A stretch of 64,000 nt of DNA from Membranipora membranacea (taxonomy: Eukaryota > Bryozoa > Gymnolaemata > Cheilostomatida > Membraniporidae): contig OU612071.1 in the NCBI GenBank assembly GCA_914767715.1, positions 3,844,001 to 3,908,000 of the forward strand, written 5' to 3'. The position numbers were made by a program, and so were the translations under genes. This document shows, piece by piece, positions 3,713 through 37,613 of the stretch (positions are counted from its first letter, which is position 1; each line of letters starts with the position of its first letter). The notes beneath the pieces are model-generated. The model searched no databases. It saw only the letters and a program-made list of their open reading frames with translations, and had not been told where the DNA came from.

Positions 3713-5700
3713 TGGACAGTTCTTCACTTTTAAATAACAAAAAAAGTTAGGACATCCATTTTGATTGCATGTTGAAAGCGCATAATATGAAGATAGTGCT
3801 TATTTCAATTTTTTATGAGATTTTTGCGTTTGCCATATTCAAAGTAGCTTCGTTCTGACAATAATCTCACGGATGCTCATATTTAAGCAGCCGAATCCCA
3901 TGGACTTTGTAAATGATACTCAGTTTGCACTTGAAAGGTTTGCAATTTTGATCCGAATGAATTTATTTTGCACATCGAGGAGAAGAATTACCATCGATGA
4001 TTAAGTGGAAATGAAAGTTTATGTATGAAGGAAATTAAGACAATGATTAGGCGCCTGGTCTTTTCAAACACGGATGAGATTCATTTTTTCAATACAGCTT
4101 GTTTGATATAATAAGATGCATATTTGGTAAGGATTGTAAGGTTAAACGTTCTGCAGACCAATTTGAAAACCTGAGCTAGCAAAGAGAAAGTTGGGCTAGA
4201 AGGTCTAACTTATTTAGCTCGTATGTCAATGATTTGTCATTGCACACACAAAGTGGGTACTAACACAGCGAGATATGAGATATTCATTAGGTTAGCTATC
4301 AGCCAATTCAGACAATGCTTGTTGTCTGTCACATTCGATGTTATCTTCTTACTGGGGTCAACCTAATGGGTCCTGATATTTAAACAGCATCCCAAGCGCC
4401 GTTCTCATATGTACTAAGGTATGTCATTGAAAGGAAAACGAGACACTTAGGCGCCTATATTATATTTCAGGCTTGTTTGATAAGCATCTTTTTCAATGGA
4501 TTTGTTTATTCTGAGTGTCGAATCCTGCTTGAATAACAAAGCTTTTTAAATAACTAGGATCTAATCATTTTTGAGTTTCATGTACGCCTTGAATGTTATT
4601 CGATGGTTCATTTGTTAGATAATGTAAGGCAAGGGATTGCCTTGACGCCAAAGGCATAGAATATTGTCTCGAATGAGGACTGATCAAAGTCTCATCGGCT
4701 AAATTCCTTGCTACGTGAGCCCACGAAATGCGTGGAAATGTCTTCCCACGCGTGGTGGGCGCGGCTTCATAGGCTAAACACACCCACTTTCCTTACCTTG
4801 TGACAACATTGCTAAGTGAATGACCAATGAGCCATGACCAATGAGTAAGGAGTAATGACAAATTAAATACGCTCTATTGTACCAACTGGCCAATGACAGA
4901 AGCTTAGGTTCACAGCGTGGTTAACAACACGAACATGCTGGTCTTTGAAATTGACGCATCGTTAGCATGCCCAATGGCGTGGTTTGACATTGAACAACGC
5001 ATGGAACGCGATTTCGTGGGCCTGTCTAGCTACACCTTTAGTATCTGAAATGGTGATGGGGGCATTCCCGAGCGCAAATTTCTACCATCATTTGAAATAC
5101 CCATATACAGCCTATAGGACATCTGTTTATATACAGCCTATAGGACATCTGTTTCAATTTTTATATGAATTTATTGATTTGAAACTCAAAGTTTGAGAAC
5201 CTAAACAATGGCCAAATAAACTTTAGATTTGAGCACTCTCTAAGCAATCCAATCTAACAGTATATTTTACTGAGATTATGTAAGAGCTCATAGGAGTTGA
5301 CTTACCAGTGATCTAAGACAGAATAGGTTCAGCAGAATGTACTGATCATATGCCCAACTGCTCAAACTGCACCAATATATGTGCTCAGCACCACCACTCA
5401 GTGAAATGTATTTTCACGCCGTTGCAGTTCTTTTACAGAAGTAAATATCTACAAACATCGGTTAAAGATCAATGTTATATTCCTGTAATCTTCCAAACCT
5501 AAATAACTATATGGGTTATGCATACAATATTAGAGCAAGCACAGTAGACTTGTTTAGTCGAATTTTCTAGGATATTTCGGTATGAGGTGCTATTTGCATA
5601 AAAATCATCCTAGATCACGAGATGCAATCGAGCACTTTCACTTTGGTACAACAATATGGCTACCAACAAAGGTACCTTTAAAACCACTATCAATCACTTC
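3713..5700. other. Intergenic, no gene recognised
   Basis: About 2 kb upstream of the TPR gene start. I see no coding pattern and no transposon hallmark. The only clear structure is a roughly 30 bp unit (core ATACAGCCTATAGGACATCT) present twice in tandem at about 5104-5153. The promoter of the TPR gene should lie near 3720-4000, but no core element can be named. Confidence 0.5.
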
Positions 5701-6924
5701 GTTTCATACCCAAGAATTGTTGGATAATTCTGTACAATTCTAAAATTGTTCGAAACTGACCCATATATCATTACCCAACCAGCAACCATTACTGTGTAAT
5801 TAACCCTGTCTGCTAAATAAATTACGTTCATCATAGCTATTGTATAGTTATAGTACTAGAACTGATAAGATCAGAGATCACCGAAAAGAGGCAAAACTCT
5901 TCGGCTCAGTTGGACGATCATAGTTTAGTTCACTGGTCAGATTGATGTTCGTCATTTGTCTGTATTCGGAGTTGCTTCCCCGTCCATTGGAGGGAAAACA
6001 ACTCCGAATTTACGCAATTGGATCAAAATTGATACCTTTACATTCAAAAATTGATGCTTCAAAATTGAGGCATCAATTGATGCCTCAAAATTGATGCCTT
6101 TACAGTTCTAGTCAATATTATATAATTGGATTGACATTGTATTCAATGAGTTTGTATTTAGATGACCAGGCAAGATCTCCTGTAATGAATAGATATTGCT
6201 GAGCAAGGTAGCATCAAAGTCTATAACGCGGGAGGCCCAGGTTCAAATCCCCGCCGGGGGAAAATCTTTTCGTCATGATGGAAATCGAAAGCATTCCATT
6301 CGAATTGTCCGCTCACAATTTTTGTAAGCACAGAAAACTCTTAGTAATGAGTATGATTACCCGACAAAATACTCATGTTCAACTCTTCTGTGTGTTGTAC
6401 CATACCCTACGTTATATTTTGTGCAATCTGTTAATATTGGCAGCAACTGCATAAATAGAATACATCAGCTAAACTATGCTAGCAGAATTATCAGAAAACT
6501 TTGCTACTAATAAAAATGTACAACATCGCTCACCAGTTGAGCGAGGAATTACTTTGTATCAATTGTCCTACATGCCTAAGTGGAGAGAAGTGATATGTGA
6601 ATGAGGCCATATTTTCCACAGAACCACTGACTACTGAAAATATCTGACTGATGCTAAAAAAATTCAAACTTGGTGTCACAGCAAGTAGTATGAGTACTGT
6701 TTATTGTCATAGTATAAACTACGCTCATTGTGATTATTGAGAGTGAATGGCTTTCGGCTATTTCTATTTGTTAGCCAAAGATGCTCTGAGCATGGAGTTA
6801 GCTCTGAATGTTATGGTATGTGGGCTGTGGGAGGCAAAGGTAAATCAACTATTGTAAGCCTGGTATATATTCATTACCTGTCTACAAAGGAGCTCTTGAT
6901 GTTATACTATATCATTCTCAGCCA
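5701..6924 (+). repeat. Left arm of a 1 kb inverted repeat
   Basis: This arm matches 12028-13016 on the opposite strand at roughly 95 percent by eye. It is longer because of about 240 extra bases at 5855-6097, which include a hairpin at about 5965-6008 (CGGAGTTG ... CAACTCCG) and repeats of AAATTGATGCCT. A tRNA-like B box (GGTTCAAATCC) lies at 6240-6250. Open frames shared by both arms (for example 6737-6931) have no recognisable domain. The element family is not identified. Confidence 0.75.
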
Positions 6925-12027: not shown

Positions 12028-13016
12028 TGGCTGAGAATGATATAGTATAACATCAAGAGCTCCTTTGTAGACAGGTAATAAATATATACCAGGCTTACAA
12101 TAGTTGATTTACCTTTGCCTCCCTCAGCCCACATACCATAACATTCAGAGCTAACTCCATGCTCAGAGCATCTTTGGCCAACAAATAGAAATAGCTCAGA
12201 GCCATTCACTCTCAATAATCACACGGAGCGTAGTTTAGACTATGCCAATAATCAGTACTCATATTACTTGCTGTGACACCAAGTTTGAGTTTTTTTAGCA
12301 TCAATCAGCATATTTTCAGTAGTCAGTGGTTCTGTGGAAAATATGGCCTCATCACATATCACTTCTCTCCACTTAGGCATGTAGGACAATTGATACAAAG
12401 TAATTCCTCACTCAACTAGTGAGCGATGTTGTACATTTTTATTAGTAGCAAAGTTTTCTGATAATTCTGCTAGCATAGTTTAGCTGATGTATTCTATTTA
12501 TGCAGTTGCTGCCAATATTAAAAGATTGCACAAAATATAACGTAGGGTATGGTACAACACAGAAGAGTTGAACATAAGTATTTTGTCGGGTCATCATACT
12601 CATTACTAAGAGTTTTCTGTGCTTACAAAAAATGTGAGTGGACAATTCGAATGGAATGCTTTCGATTTCCATCATGACGAAAAGAAAAGATTTGCCCTGG
12701 CGGGGATTTGAACCTGGGCCTCCCGCGTTATAGACTTTGATGCTACCTTGAACAGCAATATCTATTCATTACAGGAGATCTTGCCTGGTCATCTAAATAC
12801 AAACTCATTGAATACAATGTCAATCCAATTACATAATATTGACTAGAACTGTAAAGGCTTATACTATAACTATACAATAGCAATAATGAACGTAATTTAT
12901 TTAGCAGGCAGGGTTAATTACACAATAATGGTTGCTGGTTGGGTAATGATATATGGGTCAGTTTCGAACAAATCTAGAATTGTACAGAATCGTCCAACAA
13001 TTCTTGGGTATGAAAC
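12028..13016 (-). repeat. Right arm of the 1 kb inverted repeat
   Basis: Reverse complement of 5701-6924 without the extra ~240 bases. It contains the same tRNA-like stretch (B box on minus near 12703-12713). Both arms are about equally intact, so a recent duplication in opposite orientation or two insertions of one element are possible. The spacer is 5.1 kb. Confidence 0.75.
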
Positions 13017-16000
13017 TCAGTGAATTACGTGTCTATGGGCAGCCTGAGTACACAGAACACTCATTGAAGCATAGCTATGCTGACAGTAAATTTTCTAAAC
13101 TTCTTGTCAAAGTTTAATACATAGAGTTACTACTTGTGCATGATGATTACGTACTATCTAGTCATATAGAAAAAAGATGGGATTGTTAAATACAAGATCT
13201 TACCCAAGACAATGACTCCAAATCTGCTCTGAAATTGATATTATTCTCAGGTCAATGCTGATGATGATCAAACAACACACACGCCTGACAAATACATCAT
13301 ATCAAAGAGTACTAAACACTGTATGTGTATTTTGCGATGATAGACTTGATGATGGAAGGAGACATTGATGACAGGCAGCTTCAGTCAAGCGTAGGCCCCG
13401 CCTACAAAATAGTGGTTTACACAATGAACTAGTTCATTGGTTTACAGGGGACTTATGTCAGGGTGGGAAAAACCCTGCCATAATTCAATGGCAGATTTAC
13501 ATATCATACAGTTGTTAAGGCGAACTGCAATTTAATCTACCACATAAATATCATCCTATGCCACTCTCATTGTCACACAGATATATATTCTCCAGGGTAC
13601 CATCAAATAATTTGCAGCAAAAGCTGCAGTTTTTTTTAAATTCCTTACCACATCTTGGCAGGACCCATCTTAAAAAACAATTCAAAGTTCAATAATGCTT
13701 GCTTTTTTAATTGTTGTTACAGACAAATCACATGACAGGAACCATCCAGAAACGGTCAAAGTTCCATAATATTTTGCTTTTTAATTGTTATTGCGGACAA
13801 ATCACTTGACCTGAACCATCTAAAAACAATGACCTCATTTTGAACCACGAGTTGATGTACCAGTTTATAATCCATACAAATATTAATGATTTTACATTAT
13901 AGTTTAAATTTTAAGGTGTCAGGATTTTATTATGAAACTAACGTTGAGTTTAAAATACACAGAATGATTAACAGCCTATCAGTAGATAGGATTTTTAGAT
14001 GAACACAACACTTAATGGTGTTTTATTACAACTTTAAATTAACCCTGGTTTGCGGAGCTTTCTATTTCTAGCGTCACCTTATTATTGCGTCCCCGCCTTC
14101 TGCAATATATGTTGACCTGAATTCCAGAGCGACTGACATTATGAATGGTGAGAGAATTTGAAATAATATCATACTACACAACTAATACCGAACACTATCA
14201 GACCCTGTACAGCACAAGTATTATCAAACCCAGTACAGCACAATGCTGCTACCATTGCTCCAGTAAAAGAAGAAAGAGAATACAACTACAAGTTACCACC
14301 AACTTCAGTAATACTTGCACCAGCTGCACCTGCTTGCGCAACACTTATATCATTAAAGTAAAACTACCTGCTTGCACAACAATAATGTTTGTTTGTTTGT
14401 TTGTTTATTGCCTAAATTCTAATATCCATCCTGTGATAGGTTGATAGCATCGAATGTACAGCACATACATGGAAAAATAATAATAAAAGGAGTCTGAGCT
14501 GCATTAGTTAAAAAATCGCATATAAAATTCAAAAAAGGTATTTTGTCTTTTGGTTGTTCTACACTTGGATGGCCTATATTTATCATCATCAAAGTGAAAC
14601 TGCCTGCCAAAGCCGCATCATGTACTATCATATATATCAGTGTGTACTATACACCATTGAGCACACCGATAAGTATATGCAGCAGCCAGCCACAGCTTCA
14701 GGCAGTAGCATCAGGACCGTTGTCCTATTCAGTAGTATTTTAGACTGTCAAGTGAGAGAGTAGTGTTCAGATCGTTATTCTGCGCAGACGTGTATCTATT
14801 GATATTGGATTTTAAGTGATAAACTGTGTAAATTCATCGATTGTATAATAGAGTATAATTTTTATCGTTGTGTAACATCAGCTATATCAGTGCTATCAGT
14901 GCTTATATCAGCACTCATCGAACATTTAATATAACAAGGATAAAAATAAGGATACGGATACAAAGACAGTCAGGTCAGATTATTTAGAACACCTTTGTAT
15001 GTTTAATCTTATGTAAATATTTTATACATGTATTTTGCCTCAATTGATTTAAATGGTCAGGGAAATTAAATAAAATAATCTTATGCTAAACATATTAATT
15101 TTATGCCTGTCTGGTTGACGCAAGTTGGTAATCATATCCACCTGACTCTTCAGTAGTCAGGATTGTGTAGTCAAGGGCTGGCTTAAACTTCAAGCATTTG
15201 TGGACGGCCTTGGCCACTTTCATGTATCAGAGCTGAATCAATGAACTAAACCTTAGTTTAGTTCATTGGATGAATCATATTAAGTATCATAAATCACAGA
15301 AGAACGACAGCTCAGTCATCCAAAGACAAAGTGTGTTGTATCATATTGAGGAATAAAATTGACAGTCCTGATAAGACAGGAATTTCATCAGCAGCTATCA
15401 AAAGCTGCCATATATACAAAGTGAGACGTGTGATGATTTAAATAGACTGCGTATTATAATAGCCTTGAATTAAATCTAAGTGAAAAATTGAGACGTGTGT
15501 CTAATGCATTAAATTCAGTGGAGTAAATAAACTCTGTGTTGAGACCCTTTTGTGGGTTATATAGTAATTGTACTTCAAGCGACGGCTTTCAGTGCTAAAA
15601 CCAAATAGAACCTAAAACTCAAGATAAAAGCCCACTCGCTCATCAAAGAGTAGACTCGAAGCAAGCCAACTACACCTTGTTGTGTACACGGCCCAGTCCG
15701 TTTCTCACACTTATTGCACTTATTATAAGACACGCTGAAAAGAAGACCGATGCAATCTGACACTCCAAGCGCTACAAACATGATCAGTTAACCTGGATAC
15801 AAAGAATAATATTAACCTAATTTGGATGGGATTTTGATTATGTGAGCGTATTTGTTCACTTGTAATGTCTCTACTGATTAATTAGGGTATGGTGTAACAA
15901 TCTCATCGATATTTTCTGTCTTAGACAAAAGCAAGCAAACATTTTTTTGGTTATGAGCAAAGCATTCCAGACTTGTATTTTAATAAATATTTATCTAGAT

Positions 16001-17773
16001 GAATATGATACCCTGTTGCAGTTTAGTCAAAGTTGTTTGTCATCTGAGCAAGAAACTTACTTAAGTTTTGTGTAAATCGATAGCAGTCTCTATAAAATAA
16101 TATCTAACATTTTTGCATAATATAATGTGACAAACAGCTGACTTGCCCAAACCAAGGATTCTATACCAGTCTGACCTTGCGGGCAATGCGTCCAGCAAGC
16201 AGCTAATGACGATATACCGCAGAAATTCCTTGGAGAATAGTTTCACTTACCAAAAAGCAACTACTAATCAAAAACTAAATTTCATGGGTTTCAGAGCGAA
16301 AACTAATTTCAGTATAAAGATTGCGCATTAATATATAATGTACGCTTAGCCTACGTTTTTCATTTAGCGATCAAAGTGTATAGTGTAATAAACTCATGAA
16401 GCCGGGGGGGGGGGGGGGCTTATAAGCCAAGAGTAGCTGTTGACCAGATTACAACCTAATCTTTAATTATTGTATAAAAACTGAAATCAACAAGTATAGT
16501 TAAAAGTTGGAGTTATCTTTGACCAATCAAAGGGGAAACGACTCAAATCTTCAGTAAGGTTGTTAATTGCAAAGTTTAAAGTTGCACTGTTTTAAAGTTT
16601 GCAAAAATTCATCGGAGCTTGCCAGTCAAATCAAGATCATCAATCCAACCTAACTAGAACTGTAACATTTTAGCTCTGGTATCATGAGATTACATTGTTA
16701 ACATGTTAGGCGGTGCAGCTGCACACAGTGCCATTCAACCTGCAGAATTGACTTGTGAAATAGACTATCTCTGCAGCACAGTGGCTGCCTTCCATCAACA
16801 AAAGAGAACTCCAAACAGGTGAAGGCTAATATAGAATACCGAAACCAATGTTTTAGAAGCAGAGGATGTTCTAGCATATTTTTTACGAATATAGACGCTA
16901 TTCAGTCGAGCTCTTTGTGAATAATGCCATGTAACGTCTATTGAGTTGATAAAAGAAAAGACAAAATAAGGTAATATGAGGTCTGTGCTGACGATACTGA
17001 CATGAGTATGTGTACAGACTTTTCCAGTTACATTTCCTTTATATTTCTGGCTTTTTGCTTGCGCATTTGAATTACTAGTCAAGATGTCGATGATTGATTG
17101 TCGCGGCATCTTTTCGAAAACACTGGTCAATTTGTATCAACGCTATAATAGCCTGGATTGGATGAGCCGCAAAACAAGATGCTTGATGAGAAAAACAAGT
17201 TCTGAATTGCTAGTATATGGCTGTCTAAACAACCTTTGAAAAGAACTATACATACAAGTTATGGAAGGTCCAGCAAGTACAGATCTGCTTCACCAAATAA
17301 GGAAAAGAAACGCTATTGTGAAACACTTGTCCTGCATATCTAAACCATTTATAATACAATTGGATCAAATGAGGGTAATTATATAACAGTATGTTACCAG
17401 ATCTGAGATCTGAGACAGACATCACTGTGGTATACAAGATAATAACTCATCCTTAGTATTGGCTATCGACAGATTTTCAAATTTTGCCCATAAATAATAA
17501 TCAGTTGTGATCAGTCCAAATAAATAGTGCTTTGGAAAGTTTCACAATAGCTAACTCATCCAGAGATAAAAACATTGTGTTTTAACAGTAATTATGATGA
17601 TGCCTCAATCTAAGTTTTCAGACTGCAGATATTTCAGGGCATTGCTGTCTGAGCAGTCAGACAATATTAATCAGAATTCGAGATCCTGTTTTCTCGACTG
17701 GTAGGTGAGAGAAGCTATAATCTCAAACTATCAGGCATAACAAAACCCATGGCTGGATTAGCTCATAGCAAAT
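13017..17773. other. Intergenic, mostly unrecognised sequence
   Basis: No gene is supported. Structures seen: an ~85 bp direct repeat in two copies at about 13670-13830 (landmarks TTTTTAATTGTT and CAAATCAC.TGAC); short palindromes CAATGAACTAGTTCATTG near 13420 and AATGAACTAAAC...GTTTAGTTCATT near 15240; a GTTT run near 14390; and a 15-base G tract at 16404-16418. Open frames such as 14145-14444 show no known domain. Confidence 0.5.
16404..16418 (+). repeat. G homopolymer tract (15 G)
   Basis: Fifteen consecutive G in an otherwise AT-rich stretch. Its exact length is prone to sequencing error. Confidence 0.85.
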
Positions 17774-17779
17774 TTTATT
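17774..17779 (-). terminator. Putative polyadenylation signal of endophilin B
   Basis: TTTATT on plus is AATAAA on minus, about 170 bases after the endophilin stop codon. No nearer copy was noticed. Confidence 0.5.
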
Positions 17780-17951
17780 GCTAATAAAATAAAAAGAAAA
17801 TATAGGCTTATCATTAATTTCATAATACATTTTAAATAATATCTTTGATGGATTTGCTATTCATTATCTGTTATTCAGAACTTGGGTATAATAGAGTTAA
17901 TTTCAGCCAGTAGAGTAAGCTTTGCTGTAATACTTATAATAATAGTAATAT

Positions 17952-20900
17952 CTATTGTCTGATGATTTCTATGTAAGCCATTGGGACACGCCCCTTGGCT
18001 CCGCCCCGCTCTGCCATCATCCAATCAGAATCATCCGTAGGCCATACACTTATTAGCTGCAATAGAGAAGAGACACCGTGATTACCAAGTATATCTGACA
18101 TAACATGAGTAAGAGTGTTGTTCCACAAAACTTAGGCAGTTTTGGTCAAAACTAATCAGCTTGTTTTTTCATTTACTAGAGAGCAGGGCACTTTAATAGC
18201 AATGAGTGGGCATGAAAGCTTGCGACTTCATAAGAAGTGAGCTATATAACTTTGCCATCAACTCAACAATGAATTTTGAACTTAAGAGTCTTATGCGTAA
18301 AGTGTTACCCTCCACCGTAAACAAGGAGACAGTAAACACTGCTCAGCCACAAATAAATATAATACCTAATTCTCAAAGCAGGGAGAGGCTGCCCCTGTGA
18401 AAAAGTGAGTGTTGCTGAATTAATTCGGTCAAACAGTTACGTGTCGAAAAGGTAAAAATGTGCATGGGCCACGCCGCTTGGACTCATCTCAAGGTTCGAA
18501 ATTGATATGGGTGGAAATTCTTTCGGAGAGAAATATTTATGGATAACTAGAAAGCATCAGTATATTTGGAACAGTTAGCTGATAGCATGGGAAAGTGCAT
18601 GATGGGACGGATCAATATTTAGCATTTCCAGTGCATTGTGGCCAATATCTATTAATAGCGGACATTCACCTCATCAGCCTTTAGGCTTAGCTCATCACTT
18701 CTACTAGGCTCATAATCATATAACACTCTGGCCCGCTGTGTTATTGGTTCATCTCTCAATGAAGCAAAGCCGCCATTGGCTGGTTTAAGGTCATGTGACA
18801 TGGTAGTAGCGAATGAGCTTTTAGTTGAAGGTTGCTGATACCCTCCACCTCCTCCAATTATTGTTGCATTATTACTAGAGTGATAAAAGGGTGAAGAGGA
18901 AATGAGACAAAACATTAGATAAGCGGACGCACACAGCCATAACCTAGAACTGGGTACTGTATAAAGTCTAATAAATGCCCTGGTACAACAGCCATTCTCT
19001 CTCACAAAGATTCCACCATTTGGGCTGTTATGATCCGCCCCCAATTTCACGGTAGAATATTAACGGATTGTTTGTACAAAATACATAGTTTAAGAATTTA
19101 TTGAATTATTCCTGGGCATTTATTTGGGACTTTCCAGTAAGCCATCACCAAAATTGCATGATATTACTTTGCCATGTCCTCTACGATCAATGTTGGCTTT
19201 ATAAACCTTTTAAATTTTACAGAAGTGCTAAACACTCAATTTATGGAATGACTCAAAGCACTGACAAAGCACTTTCTATTTTGCAGCCTAAAGACCACTA
19301 CCATTACCAGCACCATCTACAACCACAACCTGTCCCCCAAGTGTGCTTGGTACCTGAGCTTAGCCTCTTTGTGAAATGATGGCAATCAGTAGTCTAGATT
19401 TAGGCTGTGAGAGCGAAAAATGTTAGAAGTGATTATTAATTTATTTGCGTGGAAATAACTTCTGGAAGGCCAGAGCAATATTGAGGTAGAATCTGTGATT
19501 GTAATACAAATTTTGTTGCAATATTGTCAATCATGATAAAACGTTGGGTGTTTTCTCTTTTTTAATAAGATCCGTGACACTTCATGCACAGTCTTCTTCT
19601 CAAATTGTGTTGAAGACCGAAATGTTGTGTTGATCCTTTTTTTGGAAAAATCAGGATTGAAGTAATCAGCACAGATTTGACCTCCATGTTGCTTTGGTCT
19701 ACTAGATTAGGACTACATGAAAACATCAACAATCTCATTCATAATACCTCATCAGCAATCAGTGACAACTCTGTGTCATCAGATGCAAAATAGTCATACA
19801 GCACTTTAGCTTTCCCTCTACTCTGATTGGCCACTTCTGGTGTCTCAGAGGGCGGAGCAGAGGGAGGAGCTAAATCATTTGATTGATAGCTTGATACTGC
19901 AGGACTAGGTGCTTCATTATGACTACTGCCATTGCTGGTAGCAGTGTAGCTGCCAAAAAGTTAAAATCAAATGCTAGATGATGCTGATTGATGGAAGGTA
20001 TTTGTGGTATTGTAATGTCTTCTGACCAATAGAATGTGTCACAGTATTCTATTGAATAGGAAAGTGAGCAACATCAGTAAGGTTCATAGCAAACGCATAA
20101 TTTTTTGCAATATTCGGTTGATATATATTGTCAAAAGGGTTAATAAAATATTAAAAGGACCTTTACACCAACATTATACATCAGTCAACCCATCTCAGTG
20201 ATTTAAGGCTATCATACCCGGCCTCAGCAGCATCAAAGGCGCACTAAGCAGGTAATAGCTTGCGAAGATCAGTAAAAATGGTACTAATCAAATCATAGGA
20301 AGACCTAAAGATCGCCTTTTTTGTCTGATCTGCGCTAAACAGCGGGTAGTTTGTGCATCATAGACTGATATGATAAGCCTCAGATCTAAGAGACAAATTG
20401 TTGTTGGGGCTATTCACAAGAGCCCCTTTAACTGGGATACATTCAGTAGTGGTTTTATTAGTGCTAACCTGCCGAGATGTCGCTGTAACTCCTGCATATA
20501 CTGATGACAGTTAGCGTAATAAGCAGCCTGAGCCTCAACAAAATCACTCAGACATCGAGAGTGATGATTGTGCGATGTACTAATACCTGAAATAATACAC
20601 ATGTCAAATGTAAGTTATATGTAGAGATATAGAGATACCAAATTGGAATGAAGGTTAAGTTCTGAGTCAAGTGCTACTTGGTGTCAGTGAAAGAAACGAG
20701 TCATGGCCCAAGATTTAAGTCATGACCAGTTAATGTTCTCAAACTCTGCCACGATTGCTACACATGCATTCCATTATCAGCGGCATCCAAAGTTATACTA
20801 CTAAGAAATTAATGTGGTTGAGTGTAAATGCTGCAACAAACAACTCGGGCAGAGTTTGAGCACTTTATCTTATCTTTGACATGGTGCTGGGCCCGGTCTA

Positions 20901-23900
20901 CCTAGCCATTGATGTGAGCATGATCTGGATAGTATGACTTACTGATCACATATTATATGGTTCTTCCTTTGGCTAAAGAAAGCCTACCTTAACTAATCAA
21001 CGCCCTATACATAAGAGCAGGACTAAGTAACCGGATAACTAGGTAACCATATAATAACTAACCTTCTAGTAACAACTTAGTAGACTCAGCTTGTTTATCA
21101 AACTCTGATTGGGCCTGTCTCAACTCTGACTCCGCCTACAAAAAATAGCAGATCGATACAAACCGTTATATATTTGTGCTGCCCTTTATCAAGAAAGGCA
21201 ACTCACAAGCACGATGTTTGGAGATATAAGACCAGCAGATTCAATGTTCATCTATCTTAGTTCAAAAGGTGGAGTTATCTTTGATCAAGTCTGATCACCA
21301 ACTATACAACGCAGATCTACAACACATGATTGAATATGTAAGCTGCTTTTGTGTGGCAAAGTATATAATGACGTGAGTCCTAAACTACATAGCAAGTGAT
21401 AGTGAAATATAAGGAGATATTTCATAGGTTAAATTATAATGTATGTATGCATAAAAAATTGTGTATATCATATTTCATATATATGTATTTGTGTATAAAA
21501 TACTTATTGAATCTTAGACTGAAAATTTAATTACTTTTAAAAATAATAATGCCGGTTACGCCTCAGTTAAAGCAAGCCGACTATACACAAGTTGCTGCTA
21601 GTGGCATTCCACAATCACCTAGTCTATGGCTGACAATTGAATGCCATTAATATCTGGTGTCATCAGGCATTCCAAAGCCCTGTTGGCAAAACCACCAGCT
21701 TATTATTACTACTGTACAGCACATAAGTTTTTGCTGCTTTCCACAATTGATTGACGTGACTTTGACATAAATTATAATGTTGTAGTTGTGAGAGCAGAAC
21801 GACACTAAACAATTGCTACTACTATGCTCGATCGCAACACATAGTCCACACACAATAACTACAGCCCCATAATAGAGACTTTATAATACTTGGTGTGGAT
21901 AGGAAGGTCTGTGACTAACTAAAGCACCATATACGATAAAACTGAAACAAATAATAGGCACAATCTATGGAAAATTAGCTAAAAAACACAAGCTTCTCTG
22001 AGTTAGGGTCGGTAGTAGTGCCTACTAATGACAATACTACCGCCCTAATTACAAAAACTTAGGTTCTCAAGCTAAGAGCAAACTGAATAATTTACACAAG
22101 AGAAGTCTTATCGAACCTTATTGATGAGTTCCTATAAAAGTAACCAGAATAAGACATGAGATCAAACCACCTGCATTCCTTTACTATATCTATGAGGTCA
22201 CTGAGGTGCTGCTCCTACACGTTATTGGAGATGGGGGAGGGGCGATTGTATAGCAGGATATTCAGGTTGTGGAGCGTCTTAAAGCCTGCTTTGTGTAGCA
22301 GGGAGGGAGGGGGTATGTTGCATTTCCTAGATAAAACTACAGTGTATCTCTAATAAAATGTTTCGTGACAAGCTCTGCAAGCATTTTTTTAAATCAAAAT
22401 GTATAACTGAGTTGGTGCGGACAGGTTCTTCTAAAATAATAAGCAGTGTTAAAGCCGTTGAGACTCAAAAGAGTGTTGCCGCTCACACTAAAGAGTGAAG
22501 AGCCTGGATTCCAAACCACCTTTGGGTTGGATGGCCACAAGAGGATGATCAGAGCCCCCTGCACTACGGTGCTGAGTGTACAACATAAATAACCTTATTG
22601 CCAAAATTGCTTGTAAGAGGTTGTGTAAGTTTTTAGAAGGATTAGATTAAGAATGCAAATGCTGGACATGATGGTGTGATGATATGACATTTCATCAGAG
22701 TCAGAATTTGTATATCGATTACAGACTGATTATTATCAAGCTGGCCCAAAATTGGCTTGGTGATACAACGACATCACCCATCACTCGGATGTTCAAATAT
22801 TACGTCTCTGATCAAGAGAAATCGGGCACTAAGGCTTAACAATGAAAACCAATATGAGGATAGGAAATAGTTTCTACACCACGACACTAGCTTGAGTGCA
22901 CAAGCTGTTTGCTTTGAAGGGGTTTGGGTACTAATTTGTCAGGTACCGTCCCAACAGCAGAGCTTGAGCACTCAAGCTAACACAACATATATACATGTGA
23001 CAACATCGAGAGAATAAAGAAAAATACCTCAATCTGAACTGGAGTCAACTTAGACTTAGACTGCAAAATAAGAACAGGATATCAGCAGAACATAACCATA
23101 TAAGTACACACTGATCACATGACCACATCGATCACATGACCAGGCTGATCACACAACCACACTGATCACATGACTACACTGGTCACATGATCGCACTAAT
23201 CACATGATGCACTATTTATTGTATATCCCTGATCGGTAGATCGTTCATTTATTCATGAAGCCCGAGTACCTTCAAACGGAATTCGGTGCAAGCACCCAAG
23301 GTTAAACTCTTTATTTAGAGGTGGGACGATGTTAGGTATTAAGACTAAATTGACTCAAACGGATCAGAGAAATTCATGCCGATAGTGCAAGTGTGATAAA
23401 AAACTAAGAACACTGATGTCTAAGAACACTGATGTCTAAGAACATTGATGTCTATGAACACTGATGTCTATGAACATTGATGTCTGTAAACATAGATCTC
23501 TCAGACATGTGAAATCTCAACAGTATTTACATCCTAAGAATGTATAAAAGATAGACACACTCAGACACCATCAAAAAAGATACTAAACTTTTATGTATAG
23601 AGTTAAGAGAGTTTAACTGCTACTTGTAATGTTAAAAGGCACATACTTCTGGAGGCTAATTGGATCATACTCGACCTATGTCTATATTTTACTTTCCCCA
23701 GGACTCCTAGCATTTACTGCAGATTACCATCAGCAGTCCCTCTTGACAAGCTTTGTTGGTGGTGGAGTAGGGGGGGGGGGACAAAGCTTATAGACTCTTG
23801 CGGCTAATTATCGCGAAGAGAGTTGTCATCTCTTAAAATTGGGAAGAATCTTATCAATCTTGGGATAAATTGAATTGGAAAATGGAAAACCAGTTTGTAG

Positions 23901-26900
23901 ACAATTTTTCTCCCCCGATGCCTTGATGATTTGACGCAAAAGTCTAGAAGCTTTATTCCCACCCACTACCAACAACCACTGCTTGTAAAGACAGGCTAAC
24001 CATTAGAATACATTCATATCTGATAGTTATTCTTCCGAGGGATAGGAGATTTACTCACATCCTGCCTGCCCTGTTCAGACCTGGCACGTTTAAGTTTAGT
24101 TTTAGCCGCATCTAAATCCAGCCTCCTCATCTCAAGAGCTCTCCTCTCTTTCTGTAAAGCAAATGATAATAAATAAATTCAAAAAGAAAAATAAATAAAT
24201 TTAACTCAAAAACTCCATAATTTTGAGTTGTCCTTGGAAACATCTGCCGATAAAAAGTAGGAGCAACTTTAAACTCAATTAATTAAATCTGACGCATATG
24301 CGACTGATGTATGTCCCAAATACCCTGAGCACATCCAGCTATGTGACTACAACGGCCCTATCCCTAAAAACTAGAAGCTAGAATGACTAACGCATGCTGT
24401 GTCAGTGCAGACAAATCAGGGCATACCATCAAACTACTTTTATATAAGGGCAAGGAAATACTGTGACCAAACTGTCACAGAATATGACACACAACACCCC
24501 AGGCTTTCAAATAGTATATTTCATATGCTTGGTCACTCACTGCAATAGTTTTGATGTCGTTATCCAGGAAAGATTTGAGCGGACTCAGATATTCATTAGT
24601 GGATCGAGTCACAAAGTCTCTCTCGCAATCTCCTAACTTCTGCTGAGTCTGCCCGACCTTGAGTAATGCGTTACCTGTAAACAAACAAGCAGATCAAATA
24701 ATCATAACTGATAATAATGTACATATCTGAGGAACAAAATTAAAAGGTTTCTATTATAAATTACAAAAAAACGCCTCAACAAGTTAGATTCCTTATAATG
24801 AGACAGACGATGGGTCAAACTGAAAACACCACAACAATTATAGCGATGGCATACAGAAATAATTTGACTACTTGGCCCAATTTTGAAAAAAAATATAAGA
24901 CCCCTTCCCTCTCTTTGTTACCAAAATTTTGAAATAGCCCATTTGATATTTGGGCTGTACTTTAAATTTCAGCCTAGTTATGTGACAAAACATGCTATCA
25001 GTGGAACCCTAAAGAACTGTAAGTGCTGAGCTACTTGTTAATACATGACAATACACTTGAACAACATATAACTTGTCAAGCGATGAAGTGATTGCACCAA
25101 TAAGTCTCATCACAGATATTTGTCTTCACCCTAGACAAGAACTACCCAAATTCACAGCCTGAGAATACACTAATTGTTCGAAAACTTTCAGGGAGGTTGA
25201 AAACGAATTGAATAACCAAGGGTCTCAAACTAAAAAGTAAAGTAACAATGAAGATGTTACTATGTTCATTTTTACATGTAACATAGAGTAGTTGTGCTCT
25301 CTCTTGATGGAAGGATATAACTCGAAACTATAAAACCTGACCTTTCGAAAAGTTTTAAAAGATTTAATTTGAATGATACGGATGACTTGTCCCCAAGCTT
25401 AGACCTTAGTTTTAGATTCAAAACCACTGTGTTAGGGTCAAAGTTAGGGTTTGGTCTTTTTAACTTATATAACACAGACTACTTGGCAAAAATAAACTTC
25501 ACTATAGGCTATTAGATTAATAATTAATATTCTTGAATCTACATCTTAGTGAGTATTTACCATAAGCCAGCTCTCCTTGTCTTGTGAGATGTGAGTTATA
25601 CCCTAATGATTTATAGTACACATGGTATTTAATCATAATATCTAGCTCTCAGCACAATGTAAACCGTAAGAAAATTTTTTTGTTTTGACACCACAACACC
25701 AATATATACGCTGATATGACATCACCAGTATATACGCTGGTATGACATCACCACTCTATGTATTGATGCAGTATTAGCATCACAGTTGCTGATGCCATGA
25801 CATCTAAAGTAGCCGGAATCTCAAATCCAAAACTTCTGTCTACCTCGGGTTAAGTCTAAACTCCTAGTTGGTGACCAGCCAACGTCACAAACTGGAACTC
25901 AATATAAACATACCAATCAAATCAGAGCTTCACTTACCGTATGATGATCCAGGGCCATAGGCAGCACTAGCCTCTAACATAGCACCCCCTAGCTGAGCAG
26001 CGTTAGATAGCCGCTCCTTTTTAGCATGACTCAGACCCGTCTCATTCAGGTTCTTATAGACAAAGTCCTCCGCCCGAGCCGCTGTAAAGTAAACAGTATA
26101 CTAAACATTGATTTTACGAGGATATGTAGATAATGAGTGATTGCGTCCCAGCCCTAAGATAACAATTAAAACTGAAATCAAAGATTTCAAAATGATTTCC
26201 AGGTGCTAGGACACGGCTCCAAAGCCACATTGTAATATAACTCAAAACATATCTTTACTTCATTGAGTTTAGCCTCACACTGGAATAATGCATCAGCCTG
26301 TAAACTAGTCTACATCATGTGAATTTCTGTTGAGTTAAGGCCAAAAAGAGATAGGAGTAATTTTCGCATCAGGATTTGTCGTACTGAAGTCCGAATTAAT
26401 AGCTCATAGACACATGGAACTAAACCTTATGTAGGACGGTAAGATAGCCTACAAGTTTGGTTTTGGGTGATTTTCCAGACTGATAATCCGTTTTCACGGC
26501 TATTTTGTAGTACTTCACACTGTTAGAATCCCCAGGGAGTGATGATGCTGATAGACGATTCATTGATCCACCAGATGTGTCAATTACACACACATCATTG
26601 CATAAATACATCAGAATTTGCTATACTTGCAAAGCAAACTCTCTGAAGGCCAATCAATAATTTTTGAGCTTAGCCGCAAAAATTTCCGGAAGAAAGAAAT
26701 CCAATGCAATGCCATGTACTCTAATAATCAATGATAAGCATACTTTATAAGAGTAAGGATATATATAGATCAAGCGTAATCCAATTGCATGCGTTCCAGT
26801 TGCTCCCTTTTGCTTGTCACTCCGCTGGCGTGACCAGTGGATCGGGAGCAATTCTGAATGCAGACAAATGGACCAAAAATGGTGTTGGATATATCCATAG

Positions 26901-29900
26901 GCCTGGTCTGTGTATGTATATTGACTGCAGCTGCAAAGTTATGTTTGATAGTGTGCTGGAAGATGCACTGGAAGGTCGGTGGATGCTTCAAGTGCCAGTT
27001 TGACGGCCAGGGTGTTGAGTTAACTCTCGAAAAAGATGAGGCTGTCATTAAATACACTATATAATTTAATCAGCAACTCGATGAGAAACTAGCCTCATTA
27101 TTAAGAACAATTTTCAAATGGGACAACGAATTTTGGAGCTGTTTGATTTTTACTGAGTGGTGATTTTTTGGTAACTAAGCTTGTTCGGCCAGTACCCTGT
27201 CTTGATAAATGTCAGTAAGTTATTTAACAACTTTCTGTAATCTGAAAGTCATGTTCCTGATCATTAGTTATTGTGTTGTGCATTGTACTGCACATCGTAA
27301 TCACAACAGATCCGTTCTTTGGACATTGATTGACAGATTGCCTCTGGAGAAATGTCAGAAAACGGAGACTAAGAAGCCAAAATGAGCAAAAACTCCTATA
27401 ATTATCAGTTTAACCTGGTTCAGCATTGGACAGGATAAGGAAGTAATTTTCTTACAAATGAAAGATAGGAATTAATTAAGCTTGTTGTGAAACTCTCGAA
27501 AAAGGGCATACATGGAAAGTTTGCCAAATAAATTTGGGGTTTGGGAGGGGAGGGCTTGAATTCTACACAGGAAAATTGGGCCTCCAAATCGACTATTGTG
27601 CCGAATTCATTTACCTTTTCCGTCAAATGCTAGGTTTTCCATACAGAAAACAAAGCTTACATATGACTGCACAGTAGTTGTCAGATCGTTGACTAGTTAC
27701 TGATTAGGATACAAACACCACATGCTGATTTAATCAGTGTGTTACCACACCAGGAGATAAAACTTCTTATCTCAATCTATAGCTGAGAATCACAGCAGTG
27801 CACTAACCAGGAGTTCATATGTGTGATTCACACATGGCTGATATAAATGATATCTCACACGGGATTGAACAGGGACAGAAGGCCTTGACATCAATGCCAA
27901 GCCAAGAAGTGTTTAATGATCAACCACTAAAATGCTTATTCCAAATATGGGTATTAATTGTAATTGGGTTCAGGCCTTTGGGGATTTATTTTGCCATTGC
28001 GTGGTTTTGCCTTTCAAGGAATTTGAGATTTGAGGGCTGGTAGGAATACTCTCAGTGATGATGATCTGATGGGACGAGAAAGCCAAAGCTATGAAAAGTG
28101 CCGAGAAAATTGCACAATTTTCAAACACAAAATTATTTATTCCAGAACCAATCAGAAGAAATTCGGGAAGTTTTCCTTCATATATCACGACGGGACATTG
28201 TGTGAGTTAGGTCATACTTTTGAGGGTATGATTATATCAAGTAATGGAATGTAAGATATATAAGAATGTACCTGATCATAATGGGGATTCTTCAGAATGA
28301 AATCTAGCAGAATATCTACGAGTTGTATGCGAACTTGGCACAATACAATCATCTTACAGTTTAGGGGATGGGTGGGTGGGCCAGCAGATCAAAATATTCC
28401 CAGCTCAGTACTGGTAGAAGTGGAGGTTACCATATCAGTGTTTAATAAGAACAAGTTTGGTCCGGTTTGCCTGCATTCCAGTTGCTCCCCTTCCAGTAAT
28501 ATGCGGCTTATCAGTGGAGAGGAACAACTGGAATGTAGGCAAACTGGACCAAACTTTTCTAGCTTCCGATAAGGATTCACCAGTGAAACACGATACAAAC
28601 TTACTAGGATCTGGATGTAGGAGATTTTCTGTACATTTTAATAATCTCTCAGTCTGTAATTTAGTTTTATCTGCTCTCTGTAATAACTGCTCAAAGTGTG
28701 CATCTAAATCTGTGTGCTCTGCTGTACCCAACTTCTCTCCAGTGAACTGTAACAATAACATTTGTACAGGCATATATGTGTACACAAGTAAATATGTGAT
28801 CAGGTTAGGCCCCTTTCAATAAGACGAATTTGTTCTCAAATCGAGACTCAAGCAGGTCTCCTCACCCACTGTGTTATCAGATAGCAATTTTGGTTTGAAA
28901 AGATCTCCGGAATAACCCAGAGTTAGCTAGAATGTAAGGTGGAAACTAGTCAGCTCGTACTAAGCAGTGTGTATATATGTTACTTCTCTTGATGAGCAAC
29001 AATTATAGCTCGGCAGTCTACAACGGTGTTGATCATTATTTCAGCCGGTGGTGGGATGAATTTATTTTCTGTTCAGCCTTTGATTTAGCCTGCCTTGACA
29101 AGCTTGTCAAGACAGGCTACCTCTGTCTGTGGGTATCAACACAACAACAAGAACAAACAAGTGAGTCTATCCCTAATTGATTGATTATTTATTTGTCACC
29201 TAATGAAGAAGAGGTGACCAGTAATTCTACTTCTAGATGGGTAAGTAGCCTAGCAAATGCCTGACTCGTCAAGCTCAAAAGCCAGGCAAACTGGCTTGAT
29301 TAAGTCCCCTTCTAACTTAGCTCAGTAGCTCAGAACCAACTACTACTAGCTAAGCCTAAGCTACAACCAACAGTACCGAGTGGACCATCACAACACCAAG
29401 TCCCACATGAATGAACTCGTTCTACATCAACACGAGCCGCTCTTGGAACCAACTGGATCCCCAAAGCAGACATCTCTGCCTCCTGGTTAGCCCACGCCCC
29501 GTTCCTCCCCTGGTTTTCTGGCAATTGAATCTCGGAACGTTAACGGACCATGAGCTGCCACATTTCCAGAGACTTCTACACTAAGAAGTGGAGATTACGT
29601 CGGCAAGTATCAAGTAAGTAAGTTGGACTTGGTAAGACTTAGAGCAATGGTCTGGACTTGATTGATGTAAATTTATTTTTTGCCGGCGTAATCTCCACTT
29701 CTTAGTGTAGAAGGTTCTGGAAATGTGGCAGCTCATGGTCCGTTAACGTTCCGAAGTCGGCTAGGGTGAATGGCCCATGACAGCCAAATCAGGTAGTACT
29801 AGACAAACAGTGGCACCCGGTGGGTCTCGAACTCGGGAACTAATGATCCTGAGTCCAACAACAACTTACAACGCCCCTGACAGTGAGCTTAATTAGTGAC

Positions 29901-30077
29901 TACACTTTAGTGGGCATAAAGGGCATTGTCCAAGTACATAGTTGAGTGATAATGAGATACCTTACTTCCCAGCTCTCTGTTATAACTCTTAATAGCTTAC
30001 AGAACCATTTAACTAACCTGGACAGCTCTGTTAAAGAAAGCTGAAGCTCCTCCAGCAAATTTCTTGAGATCCTCCAT
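17952..30077 (-). CDS. SH3GLB1/SH3GLB2-like: Endophilin B (BAR + SH3), complete, ten coding exons per transcript
   Basis: Endophilin B binds and bends membranes, with roles in mitochondrial and endosomal shape and in autophagy. Exons in transcription order: 30018-30077, 28605-28746, 25938-26081, 24541-24674, 24059-24151, 23028-23060, 21063-21135, 20469-20586, then 19748-19949 or 18670-18874, then 17952-18056. All junctions keep frame, giving 367 or 368 residues (human about 365). An amphipathic start (MEDLKKFAGGASAFFNRAVQ) is followed by the BAR domain (EKLGTAEHTDLDAHFEQLL, LDLDAAKTKLKRAR, DFVEAQAAYYANCHQYM). The SH3 domain has VLYDY, an acidic RT loop, DWMMAERG and a VP..Y end. The ATG at 30077-30075 is preceded by an acceptor-like TTACAG at about 30089, so a non-coding 5' exon is likely upstream. 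Assignment is secure; the B1 versus B2 split may post-date this lineage. Confidence 0.95.
18670..18874 (-). other. Alternative SH3 exon A of endophilin B (205 nt)
   Basis: The acceptor is CTCTAG and the donor is GAG then GTGAAT. It encodes a Gly/Ser linker, then RARVLYDYEPSRSDELSLKA ending ADE, the first half of an SH3 domain. It begins with one base that completes a Ser codon from the upstream exon (AG+T) and ends on a full codon, exactly like exon B at 19748-19949. Spliced after exon B instead, its first six bases would read TAA TAA. Confidence 0.85.
19748..19949 (-). other. Alternative SH3 exon B of endophilin B (202 nt)
   Basis: The acceptor is TTGGCAG and the donor is GAG then GTATTA. 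It encodes a Ser/Pro-rich linker, then KAKVLYDYFASDDTELSLIA ending ADE, a second version of the first half of the SH3 domain and the closer match to the vertebrate KARVLYDY...TELSLLADE. Its phases are identical to exon A (AG+C also gives Ser at the junction). Both are compatible with the single last exon, which starts at a codon boundary. Confidence 0.88.
20736..20872. mobile_element. MITE family B copy (TIRs ending CTCAAACTCTGCC)
   Basis: CTCAAACTCTGCC near the left end is mirrored by GGCAGAGTTTGAG at the right. Internal GCATTCCATTATCA is shared with copies at about 41045-41161 and, in part, 21590-21680 and 48239-48352. It lies in an endophilin B intron. Confidence 0.6.
21590..21680. mobile_element. 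Partial MITE family B copy
   Basis: GTTGCTGCTAGTGGCATTCC and the inverted GAATGCCATTA resemble the interior of the family B elements, but the outer ends are missing or diverged. Confidence 0.4.
22888..22980. repeat. Short inverted repeat (TAGCTTGAGTGCACAAGCT)
   Basis: TAGCTTGAGTGCACAAGCT at the left is mirrored with mismatches by AGCTTGAGCACTCAAGCTA at the right, around a ~50 base loop. It is intronic and MITE-like. Confidence 0.5.
23028..23060 (-). other. 33-nt microexon in the endophilin B BAR region
   Basis: TTGCAG precedes and GTATTT follows 33 bases encoding SKSKLTPVQIE. Both ends are on codon boundaries, and the flanking exons also end and begin on codon boundaries, so it can be skipped without changing frame. 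Without other species I cannot say whether it is constitutive. Confidence 0.7.
23098..23215 (+). repeat. Minisatellite, core GATCACATGACCACACT
   Basis: About six degenerate tandem copies of a ~19 base unit within an endophilin B intron. Confidence 0.8.
23403..23490 (+). repeat. Minisatellite, 17-base unit AAGAACACTGATGTCTA
   Basis: Five to six consecutive copies with single-base changes, intronic. Confidence 0.85.
26769..26877. mobile_element. Foldback MITE family A copy 1
   Basis: The left end ATCAAGCGTAATCCAATTGC and the right end with GCAGACAAATGGACCAAA are inverted relatives. The interior has TTCCAGTTGCTCCC mirrored by GGGAGCAATTCTGAA. It lies in an endophilin B intron. Confidence 0.7.
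28453..28556. mobile_element. Foldback MITE family A copy 2
   Basis: Nearly palindromic: AAGTTTGGTCCGGTTTGCCT at the left is mirrored by GGCAAACTGGACCAAACTT at the right, with CATTCCAGTTG against CAACTGGAATG inside. It is the best-preserved copy, about 50 bases from the 28605-28746 exon. Confidence 0.8.
29086..29119. repeat. 34 bp palindrome (one mismatched pair)
   Basis: TAGCCTG C CTTGACAAG joined directly to CTTGTCAAG A CAGGCTA, with no loop. Intronic. Confidence 0.85.
29532..29754. mobile_element. MITE with 74 bp arms
   Basis: Arms 29532-29605 and 29681-29754 are inverted copies with about three differences in 74. The outer end is TCGGAACGTTAACGGACCAT. The 75 base centre is unrelated to the arms. 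No transposase. It lies in the first coding intron of endophilin B. Confidence 0.85.
29765..29890 (-). repeat. tRNA-like fragment next to the MITE
   Basis: On the minus strand GAGTTCGAGACCC resembles a B box, preceded by an anticodon-arm-like GGACTCAGGATC. The A box is unclear, so it may be a degraded SINE. Confidence 0.35.
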
Positions 30078-31236
30078 AGTTTTTACTTCCTGTAATCAAT
30101 GAAATGTCACAATATTGATTACCCCAATGTTGCATTTCGAATAATTACTAATTACTGAGAAAAGACAACTACAGGTTGGTTGTTCTTTTGACAGTATAGA
30201 CAACTCCCAATCACTGTATTAAACTTAGGTTATAGCATTAGCAGGCCAAAATTAATGCCTACTGTAGATAGCGTAGCCAACAGCATCCGCAGTCATTCAT
30301 TACTGAAAGCCTTTTTGGAGGACTTGCCTTTAACGGACAAAAAAAATGATAATGATGAGGTTGTTCAGAAGGTTCCTCCTTCCTCATTATTCAAATTTCT
30401 CACTGCCTGCTGAAAGATTTGGATATTCTCGGAAAGCATTCTGGTGTCAGACTCAGTTTTGTGACACCAGAATGCTTTCAAAGCTGGTGTGATTTGGCAA
30501 ACACCGGCCAGCTACAAAGAGATCGATCCATATCTAGCTGCAATTCTCGTAGGAAGAAAATAAATACACAGCAACCAATAATATCTGGACACTCAGTTCA
30601 TGGTTTCAAATAAACATACTTCGTCTTGAACTTGTTTATTCTTTGTAAGATATAATATCAATAATAATGGTACTGAACTACATCAGTAATATCAATCATA
30701 TTTACAATGACTCTGTAATCAAACCTGATACTAATACTCAACACAAGTTTAGTTAAAAATCTGAATCAAGTAATTACTGAAAAATTCTCTTTATAGAACT
30801 GTTAGGTACAAACGGACATAATATACAATAAATTATCTAAGCAACATATTCAACGAAGATGATACATTACCGGCAAGTATAGAAATATAATAATATCACA
30901 TTTGAAAGACACCATGTTGGGTGTTAGAGACTATCCCATAATGCAATTCCACATTACAAGATCCTATCGCGGTTATTAGTATGGCAATAAGACAAATCTT
31001 TCGTTTGAATTCTGTTTGAAAAGCTCTTAAGCTAGTGGGCTTAGTCAGAATCAGATATTATCTGCAGAGAAAACATCCATGATTGGGTCGAAACTTAATC
31101 GATCTTTTGATTCATCGCAATGCTACAATATGGCACAACTCTCTCCTCCTCTCTCTCTGACGTAGACTGAGATCTTTTCACATCATGCTCTCTGGTAGGC
31201 TTGTGCCCACCCTCGCCCCGTACACTTCTCATGTAC
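30078..31236. other. Intergenic between endophilin B and the SLC25A35-like gene
   Basis: The two minus-strand genes are about 1.16 kb apart. This space should hold the carrier's 3' UTR (a possible AATAAA on minus at 30635-30640, about 600 bases past its stop) and the promoter and non-coding first exon of endophilin B. A perfect hairpin sits at 30432-30479. No other gene is seen. Confidence 0.55.
30432..30479. repeat. Perfect 18 bp hairpin with 12-base loop
   Basis: GAAAGCATTCTGGTGTCA, loop, then TGACACCAGAATGCTTTC with no mismatch. It could be a young palindrome, a MITE remnant or an RNA hairpin; the stem is somewhat short for a standard animal microRNA precursor. Confidence 0.9.
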
Positions 31237-37200: not shown

Positions 37201-37613
37201 ACTTGAAGCCAACCTACCATGTAAATCGGGCTGCCGAAGAAGCCTCCGATCGATCCTGCCATCGCGCCACAAAGAATGCTGTTAATAAAGGGTGTCTGTC
37301 CGTTTGAGTCGCGAAACACTTTGCTGTCATTCAAGAGTTGGAAAGATCCCAAGCGGAACCCATTCATTACAAACTGGTAGGCCATTGCTGGCCGTATACC
37401 TTTCTGTAGAGCACAAACCCCCTCATGCCTGGCTACTGTGAAGAAGGCGTGAAACACATTCCTGTAATGAACTTGAAATTGTCCTTTAGCCATTAATTCA
37501 CCTTGAAGCTGCATTCTGGTTTTGACAACCTCCAAAGGATTTGTGAACACAGCAGCACCACATGTTGACACACCACCAAACAGGAACTCCATAATCTGTG
37601 GATGTTTAGGCAT
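31237..37613 (-). CDS. SLC25A35: Mitochondrial carrier of the SLC25A34/35 type, complete, six exons
   Basis: A six-helix inner mitochondrial membrane carrier whose substrate is not firmly established for this subfamily. Exons: 37218-37613, 34678-34804, 34097-34188, 33193-33331, 32119-32196 and 31237-31355. Phases close to 316 residues (309 if translation starts at the second ATG, 37592-37590, where the human protein starts). The three carrier repeats are visible: FTNPLEVVKTRMQLQGEL near residue 24, GSPIYMIKTHMQ near 127 and TPFDVVSTRLYNQ near 231. The end, FRLGPHTVLSLVFWDQ, matches the family. The donor after 33193 is GTCCGT, weaker than the others, but it is the phase that fits the next exon. 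Intron 1 is about 2.4 kb and holds a possible SINE. SLC25A34 and 35 are close paralogues, so the number is less sure than the subfamily. Confidence 0.95.
31534..31574. repeat. 41 bp perfect palindrome (20 bp arms, 1 base centre)
   Basis: GTGCACTCAGGGAGTTTGGG, one A, then its exact reverse complement. It lies in the last intron of the SLC25A35-like gene. Confidence 0.95.
33904..34044. mobile_element. Foldback MITE family A copy 3
   Basis: ACTAG then ATCAATATTGACCCAGTTTT at the left mirrors AGACTGGACCATACTTGAT then ACTAGT at the right. GGGTTTGCTCCCCTTCCACT mirrors AGTGGTGAAGGGAAGCAATT. It ends about 50 bases from the 34097-34188 exon of the carrier. Confidence 0.7.
35800..36012 (+). mobile_element. 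Possible tRNA-derived SINE in carrier intron 1
   Basis: An A-box-like TTTGGCTATGTTTGG is followed by a B box GGGTTCGAAACCC near 35888. Further on, GGTCTTCGGACAGAGACATA resembles a phrase recurring in animal SINE bodies. Borders and target-site duplication were not resolved. Confidence 0.4.

Follow-up and report, generated by a model that had tools for sequence, protein, structure and literature searches.

In the bryozoan Membranipora membranacea, the gene encoding endophilin B contains two neighbouring exons, here called exons B and A, each of which encodes a linker and the first half of an SH3 domain, although only a single exon encodes the second half. The question raised by this locus is whether the two exons are alternatives to each other. 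Our analysis of the window, i.e. the entire 64-kb stretch of contig OU612071.1 to which all coordinates refer, indicates that they very probably constitute a tandem-duplicated, mutually exclusive pair, a choice between which would replace the linker together with that half of the SH3 domain which carries the RT loop.

The gene is encoded on the minus strand, between 30077 and 17952, and has 11 coding exons. These exons and two intronic elements discussed below are as follows.

30018-30077, minus strand: exon 1 (coding part from the first ATG), MEDLKKFAGGASAFFNRAVQ, aligned with human endophilin-B1
28605-28746, minus strand: exon 2, start of the BAR domain, by alignment to human endophilin-B1
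25938-26081, minus strand: exon 3, BAR, by alignment to human endophilin-B1
24541-24674, minus strand: exon 4, BAR, by alignment to human endophilin-B1
24059-24151, minus strand: exon 5, BAR, by alignment to human endophilin-B1
23028-23060, minus strand: exon 6, 33-nt microexon (SKSKLTPVQIE), by alignment to human B1 chain 6up6
21063-21135, minus strand: exon 7, BAR, by alignment to human endophilin-B1
20469-20586, minus strand: exon 8, end of BAR; its last bases, AG, are the first two of a Ser codon
19748-19949, minus strand: exon B, linker and first half of SH3, KAKVLYDYFASDDTELSLIADE
19161-19195, minus strand: 35-nt element in the intron after exon B
18670-18874, minus strand: exon A, alternative linker and first half of SH3, RARVLYDYEPSRSDELSLKADE
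18244-18278, minus strand: 35-nt element in the intron after exon A
17952-18056, minus strand: exon 11 (coding part), the sole last exon, which encodes the second SH3 half and the stop

The alignment of the protein containing exon B (367 aa) to human endophilin-B1 (6up6) covers residues 4-365 and scores 344 bits (E = 9.5e-102), whereas the best endophilin A chain reaches 61 bits against the whole protein; endophilin B is the closer of the two, and the assignment of the gene to endophilin B by the first-pass annotation was borne out. Pfam detected the BAR domain (PF03114, 214 bits) and SH3_9 (46.7 bits in isoform A and 43.2 bits in isoform B), and the arrangement of an N-BAR domain followed by a C-terminal SH3 domain, which is the architecture of endophilin B, is present in both isoforms. 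Within the BAR domain, microexon 6 is in frame and fills an 11-residue gap relative to human B1 chain 6up6. According to the available parts of two reports, exons 6 and 7 of vertebrate neuronal Bif-1 also lie within the N-BAR domain (PMC10269655, PMC5891588), and exon 6 is possibly an alternative microexon that is shared with vertebrates or has arisen convergently.

Several other features were observed. Broken inverted arms at 5694-6924 and 12028-13023, which are 94-99% complementary in four blocks of 162-281 nt, enclose approximately 5 kb with more direct and inverted repeats and might represent either a mobile element or an inverted duplication of recent origin. A self-comparison of reading frames revealed a short dispersed repeat, found on the minus strand at 26657-26938 and 45707-45847, among others. 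The minus strand at 445-2853 contains long reading frames with TPR repeats, one of which resembles the nephrocystin-3 TPR below the cut-off, and a DUF294-type nucleotidyltransferase-like stretch, and a mitochondrial carrier reading frame is present at 37185-37664 on the same strand (Mito_carr, 4.7e-20). Elsewhere in the genome, a separate SH3 domain is encoded in one reading frame at 1489-1656 of locus L008 (RALYDFEPENEGELAFNEGD...), which, by the human sequence, we take to be endophilin A-like; no second match at E ≤ 1 was obtained in this 3,135-base locus.

The splice frames of the pair define what each combination of exons can encode. Exon 8 ends at 20469 (...CTC GGC AG/gttagc), exon B extends over 202 nt from 19949 to 19748 (cag/C...GAG/gtatta), exon A over 205 nt from 18874 to 18670 (tag/T...GAG/gtgaat), and the last exon begins at 18056 and terminates with a TAG stop at 17954-17952. 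Exons B and A are adjacent, lie on the same strand between the same two exons, and are similar in length and identical in phase. Inclusion of exon B alone gives a complete protein of 367 aa and inclusion of exon A alone a complete protein of 368 aa. When exon B is joined to exon A, the junction reads GAG TAA TAA, so that a stop follows right after exon B and the product has 333 aa. When both are skipped, it reads AGC TAA TAA, with a stop from the second base of the last exon and a 266-aa product comprising BAR only. Because both of these joins run into TAA TAA, the two single-inclusion forms are the only full-length products of the four. The first-pass annotation had given the coordinates, phases and peptides of the two exons, the completion by each of a Ser codon begun by AG and its end on a full codon, a single last exon (from 18056) for the second SH3 half, and an immediate stop upon double inclusion; all of these held to the base when the junctions were re-read and the spliced sequence was spelled out. 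The stop upon skipping of both exons is an addition to that annotation.

Stops located more than 50-55 nt before a junction, the usual limit, trigger decay through exon-junction complexes. The stop created by the join of B and A lies 202 nt upstream of the last junction, and that created by skipping both lies within the last exon, for which the exon-junction rule therefore predicts no decay. When the gene is read in its two shifted frames, 6.5% and 12.5% of the codons are stops, and tandem stops account for 0.3% and 1.6%. The occurrence of two consecutive stops at both wrong joins is striking, but it was noticed post hoc. Open frames alone are weak evidence in this gene: 36 of the 2,356 phase-fitting AG..GT stretches of 150-300 nt are open, a number that includes the real exons.

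Homology searches connected both exons with the SH3 domain of endophilin B. A tblastn search of the window with the human B1 SH3 domain gave E-values of 5.0e-8 for the last exon, 2.7e-7 for exon B and 5.9e-7 for exon A, followed by 1.7 for the next match. The two exons also detected each other in the window: the exon A query found exon B at 5.6e-4 (next match, 0.59), and the exon B query found exon A at 6.4e-4 (next match, 1.8). Among 177,635 distinct PDB sequences, the exon A peptide alone matched best the endophilin B1 SH3 domain 1x43 (E = 8.8e-4), followed by Endophilin-B1 6up6 (0.022) and PACSIN2 (0.12), and the exon B peptide alone matched, at E-values up to 1, only 1x43 (7.1e-4) and 6up6 (0.002), both of which are endophilin B1. 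Exon A together with the last exon matched 1x43 at 3e-16, the next protein outside endophilin B being Grb2 at 6.7e-9, and the match of exon A continues into the linker (FASLRDEPITQRARVLYDY versus LNDLKESSNNRKARVLYDY). The possibility that exon A lies in a separate gene was rejected, as it fits the endophilin B last exon and finds its own closest relative in endophilin B1.

On the general SH3 model, the exon A half scores better than the exon B half. Taken alone, exons A and B reach 20.8 and 14.6 bits with Pfam SH3_1, both under the family cut-off of 22.9, as expected of half-domains, and they are not among the 61 matches of a genome-wide SH3_1 search at E ≤ 1e-3. That exon A derives from a different SH3 gene of this genome was rejected in a partial test covering 8 of these 61 matches: exon A scores 28.5 bits to exon B, a modest lead over the 24.6 bits for the best of the eight loci.

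The SH3 halves of exons A and B are identical at 14 of 22 residues. Identity to human B1 amounts to 15 of 22 residues in exon A and 16 of 22 in exon B; since both are about equally near human B1, neither gives the impression of decay. The final 23 codons of the two exons specify the same residue at 14 positions (seven with the same codon and seven with synonymous codons), and 35 of the 69 nucleotides are identical and 34 differ. When 34 changes were placed at random on either exon in simulations, approximately five identical residues were obtained, with a maximum of 11 in 20,000 runs each; 14 identical residues were reached in 0 of 20,000 runs from either exon, and a stop was created in approximately 66% of runs. 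The retention of protein identity with divergence at synonymous positions indicates that the duplication is old and that selection has acted on the protein, and the best reading of the pair is that it is old and under selection. The claim of homology applies to the last 22-23 codons only, because no clear alignment can be made between the two linkers. The proposal of the first-pass annotation that both exons represent the first half of an endophilin B SH3 domain is supported: they are homologous, in phase, constrained and incompatible with each other. Taken from the genome sequence, the gene structure, the phase fit, the homology of the SH3 halves, the constraint at the protein level and the stops in both wrong products can be considered established.

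The same data bear on two explanations in which only one of the exons would matter. One exon might be an unspliced relic, or pseudo-exon, next to a normal exon, and the absence of a G at position +5 in the donors of both is compatible with this idea. However, the reading frame is uninterrupted through the 68 codons of exon B and the 69 of exon A, both have GT-AG sites and correct phases, both retain the SH3 core with the identities to human B1 described above, and their synonymous sites have diverged without loss of protein identity; we therefore regard a relic as highly unlikely. The other explanation is an artefact of the assembly, either with the haplotype copies of a single exon lined up in tandem or with a piece of another gene. 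Curation of the assembly removed 17 haplotypic duplications (PMC10290214), which shows that errors of this type can arise, but a divergence of 34 of 69 nt in the best-matched part is far too high for haplotypes. Furthermore, an all-against-all comparison of window frames of at least 25 codons (E ≤ 0.01) detected no second copy of any other coding exon of the gene, and an artefact is vanishingly improbable.

The introns that follow the two exons, introns 9 and 10, also share sequence. A 35-nt stretch after exon B (19195-19161) is identical at 27 of 35 positions (77%) to a stretch after exon A (18278-18244), this being the best of all placements searched. None of 200 shuffles reached this value (maximum, 25), the match ranks first among the 45 intron pairs of the gene (the next has 24), and it was not equalled by any of 300 random pairings of genuine window segments of matching lengths (maximum, 26). 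Each copy is the best partner of the other in the whole window, where the next best scores were 21-23. By blastn, the match was obtained at E = 0.003 with word size 7 and was not listed with word size 11 at E ≤ 1e-3. The similarities of intron 8 to introns 9 and 10 were not beyond those of shuffles, of which 119 and 25 of 200, respectively, were as good. As the element is common to both following introns, it supports duplication of the exon together with the following intron. Its conservation (77%) exceeds that of the coding SH3 half (51% at the nucleotide level), so that it may also be a retained control element, although any best-scoring stretch will inevitably appear well conserved.

How exclusivity could arise has to be considered separately for protein and RNA. 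For the full-length protein, the outcome is exclusive because the incompatibility of the frames suffices. For the RNA, no device for strict exclusivity was found in the sequence of this gene among spacing, site types and pairing. Steric hindrance requires a distance from donor to branch point of under 50 nt, and the intron between exons B and A, at 873 nt, is too long for it, so that, judged by intron length, steric exclusion of the B-A join can be rejected. Incompatibility of U2- and U12-type sites was also rejected, as all sites are GT-AG and, judged by eye, no donor follows the U12-type consensus. Seven of the ten donors of the gene have a G at +5, and the three without it are those of exon B, exon A and microexon 6. 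This distribution fits weak donors open to regulation, although chance could explain it with only ten sites.

Pairing sequences in the introns around the pair, a search for which had been suggested by the first-pass annotation, did not emerge above shuffled controls. Whole-intron duplexes were matched by 8 of 40 shuffles for introns 8 and 9, 37 of 40 for introns 8 and 10, and 20 of 40 for introns 9 and 10. The best ungapped stem between introns 8 and 9 (14 bp, 19988-19975 with 19319-19306) was equalled or beaten in 3 of 40 shuffles, seven further region pairs gave poorer ungapped stems (8 to 36 of 40 shuffles as good), and a joint docking site for both 35-nt elements was matched in 33 of 60. 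No Rfam family reached the gathering threshold in 16500-30500. A single UGCAUG is present in the intron after exon B at 19588; one hexamer is not taken as evidence.

The two exons would supply different faces to an otherwise unchanged domain. The ligand groove of an SH3 domain is built by the LYDY tyrosines, an acidic residue, and a Trp, a Pro and a Tyr at such places as are found here: the tyrosines of LYDY and the acidic residue preceding LSL are retained in both exons, and the common last exon contributes the tryptophan (SDW), the proline (VP) and the tyrosine (AY). The RT loop reads FASDDTELSL in exon B and EPSRSDELSL in exon A. The linker of exon B is proline-rich (APPSAPPSETPE) and contains the tetrapeptide PSAP, a TSG101 ligand motif, which may occur by chance in a proline-rich stretch; that of exon A is without PSAP and has a run of five glycines. 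The differences in RT loops and linkers described in the first-pass annotation were thus read in both sequences, and we infer that SH3-A and SH3-B would differ in partner binding.

In the mechanism that we propose for the mutually exclusive pair, productive mRNA would take either exon B or exon A between exon 8 and the last exon, so that the N-BAR domain and the second SH3 half would remain constant and the linker and the RT-loop half of SH3 would be exchanged. Both exons would be transcribed and chosen according to cell type or stage, the weak donors would leave this choice to trans-acting splicing factors, and the double-inclusion transcript would probably be removed by nonsense-mediated decay. 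The SH3 domain of endophilin B1 reportedly makes a self-inhibiting contact with the protein's own N terminus, and the change in the RT loop could shift either ligand preference or this contact.

Alternatively, both exons may be real and their exclusivity loose, with noisy use and with double or skipped transcripts that are degraded or encode BAR only, mainly tuning the dose of SH3-bearing endophilin B. The negative outcome of the searches for an RNA-level device is in line with such use, as are the frame of the skip-both form, which stays open up to a stop within the last exon and would yield the 266-aa BAR-only product, and the Sh3glb1 transcripts without exon 11, encoding an incomplete SH3, described for a monocyte subgroup in the available part of PMC12559242. 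However, the RT loops differ while the adjoining residues are constrained, which would be needless if dose alone mattered, and we consider this explanation unlikely. Building on the mutually exclusive pair, one may also imagine a three-state switch between SH3-B, SH3-A and BAR-only (both skipped) forms, which would retune both partners and self-inhibition and be steered by the 35-nt element flanking exon A. We regard such a switch as doubtful; if true, it would be the first known swap of the peptide-recognition half of a classical SH3 domain by mutually exclusive exons, of which, to our knowledge, there is no earlier case.

If both exons are used, one gene would produce two versions of endophilin B, alike except for the linker and the half of the SH3 domain with the RT loop. 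This would amount to a natural swap experiment, in which the same membrane-bending part and the same second SH3 half are combined with two RT loops and linkers, and it could show which functions of endophilin B depend on the choice of SH3. It would also mean that SH3 recognition has been diversified within one gene by exon exchange, not solely by gene duplication.

Among known systems, the FYN kinase also carries an SH3 domain. Its tandem-duplicated exons give rise to the tissue-specific isoforms FynB and FynT, but, in the available text of PMC9741552, these exons span the SH2-kinase linker and the beginning of the kinase domain, not SH3. Another system combines alternative splicing with a neighbouring SH3-like module (PMC2365960); there, mutual exclusivity concerns 5' exons, and HOOK is the site of internal variation, and no swapped SH3 half is mentioned in the accessible part of that paper. 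Vertebrate SH3GLB1 (Bif-1/endophilin B1) belongs to the same family as the present gene, and its isoforms vary by cell type (PMC10269655). As far as the available portions of the reports extend, the variation described in SH3GLB1 concerns exons 6 and 7 inside the N-BAR domain, not two versions of an SH3 exon (PMC10269655, PMC5891588), and the skipping of exon 11 that leaves an incomplete SH3 (PMC12559242).

In the open-access literature, as far as its text was available and with most subscription journals and genome annotations outside the scope, no mutually exclusive SH3 exon pair of endophilin was found, consistent with the statement of the first-pass annotation that no such pair had been described in endophilin B. 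The word 'endophilin' occurs 0 times in the main texts, to which this count refers, of PMC5740500, PMC9741552 and PMC4465641. In the accessible part of PMC5740500, mutually exclusive exons are recognized by junction reads for each exon and none joining both except for frame-shifting joins, and 377 (60%) of the human clusters include exons whose length is no multiple of three. For Membranipora membranacea, PMC10290214 lists ERR6464929 as a poly(A) RNA-seq run. It is well supported, on the evidence of the gene itself, that exons B and A represent a new example of a known splicing event, in a protein and a domain for which we found no described case. With the tandem-duplicated mutually exclusive exons described in the available texts of PMC5740500 and PMC9741552, they share an arrangement of adjacent homologous exons of similar length and the same phase, and a swap, predicted in the present case, inside a folded domain; compared with the surveyed class, the part that would be swapped here is the RT-loop half of an SH3 domain in a BAR protein.
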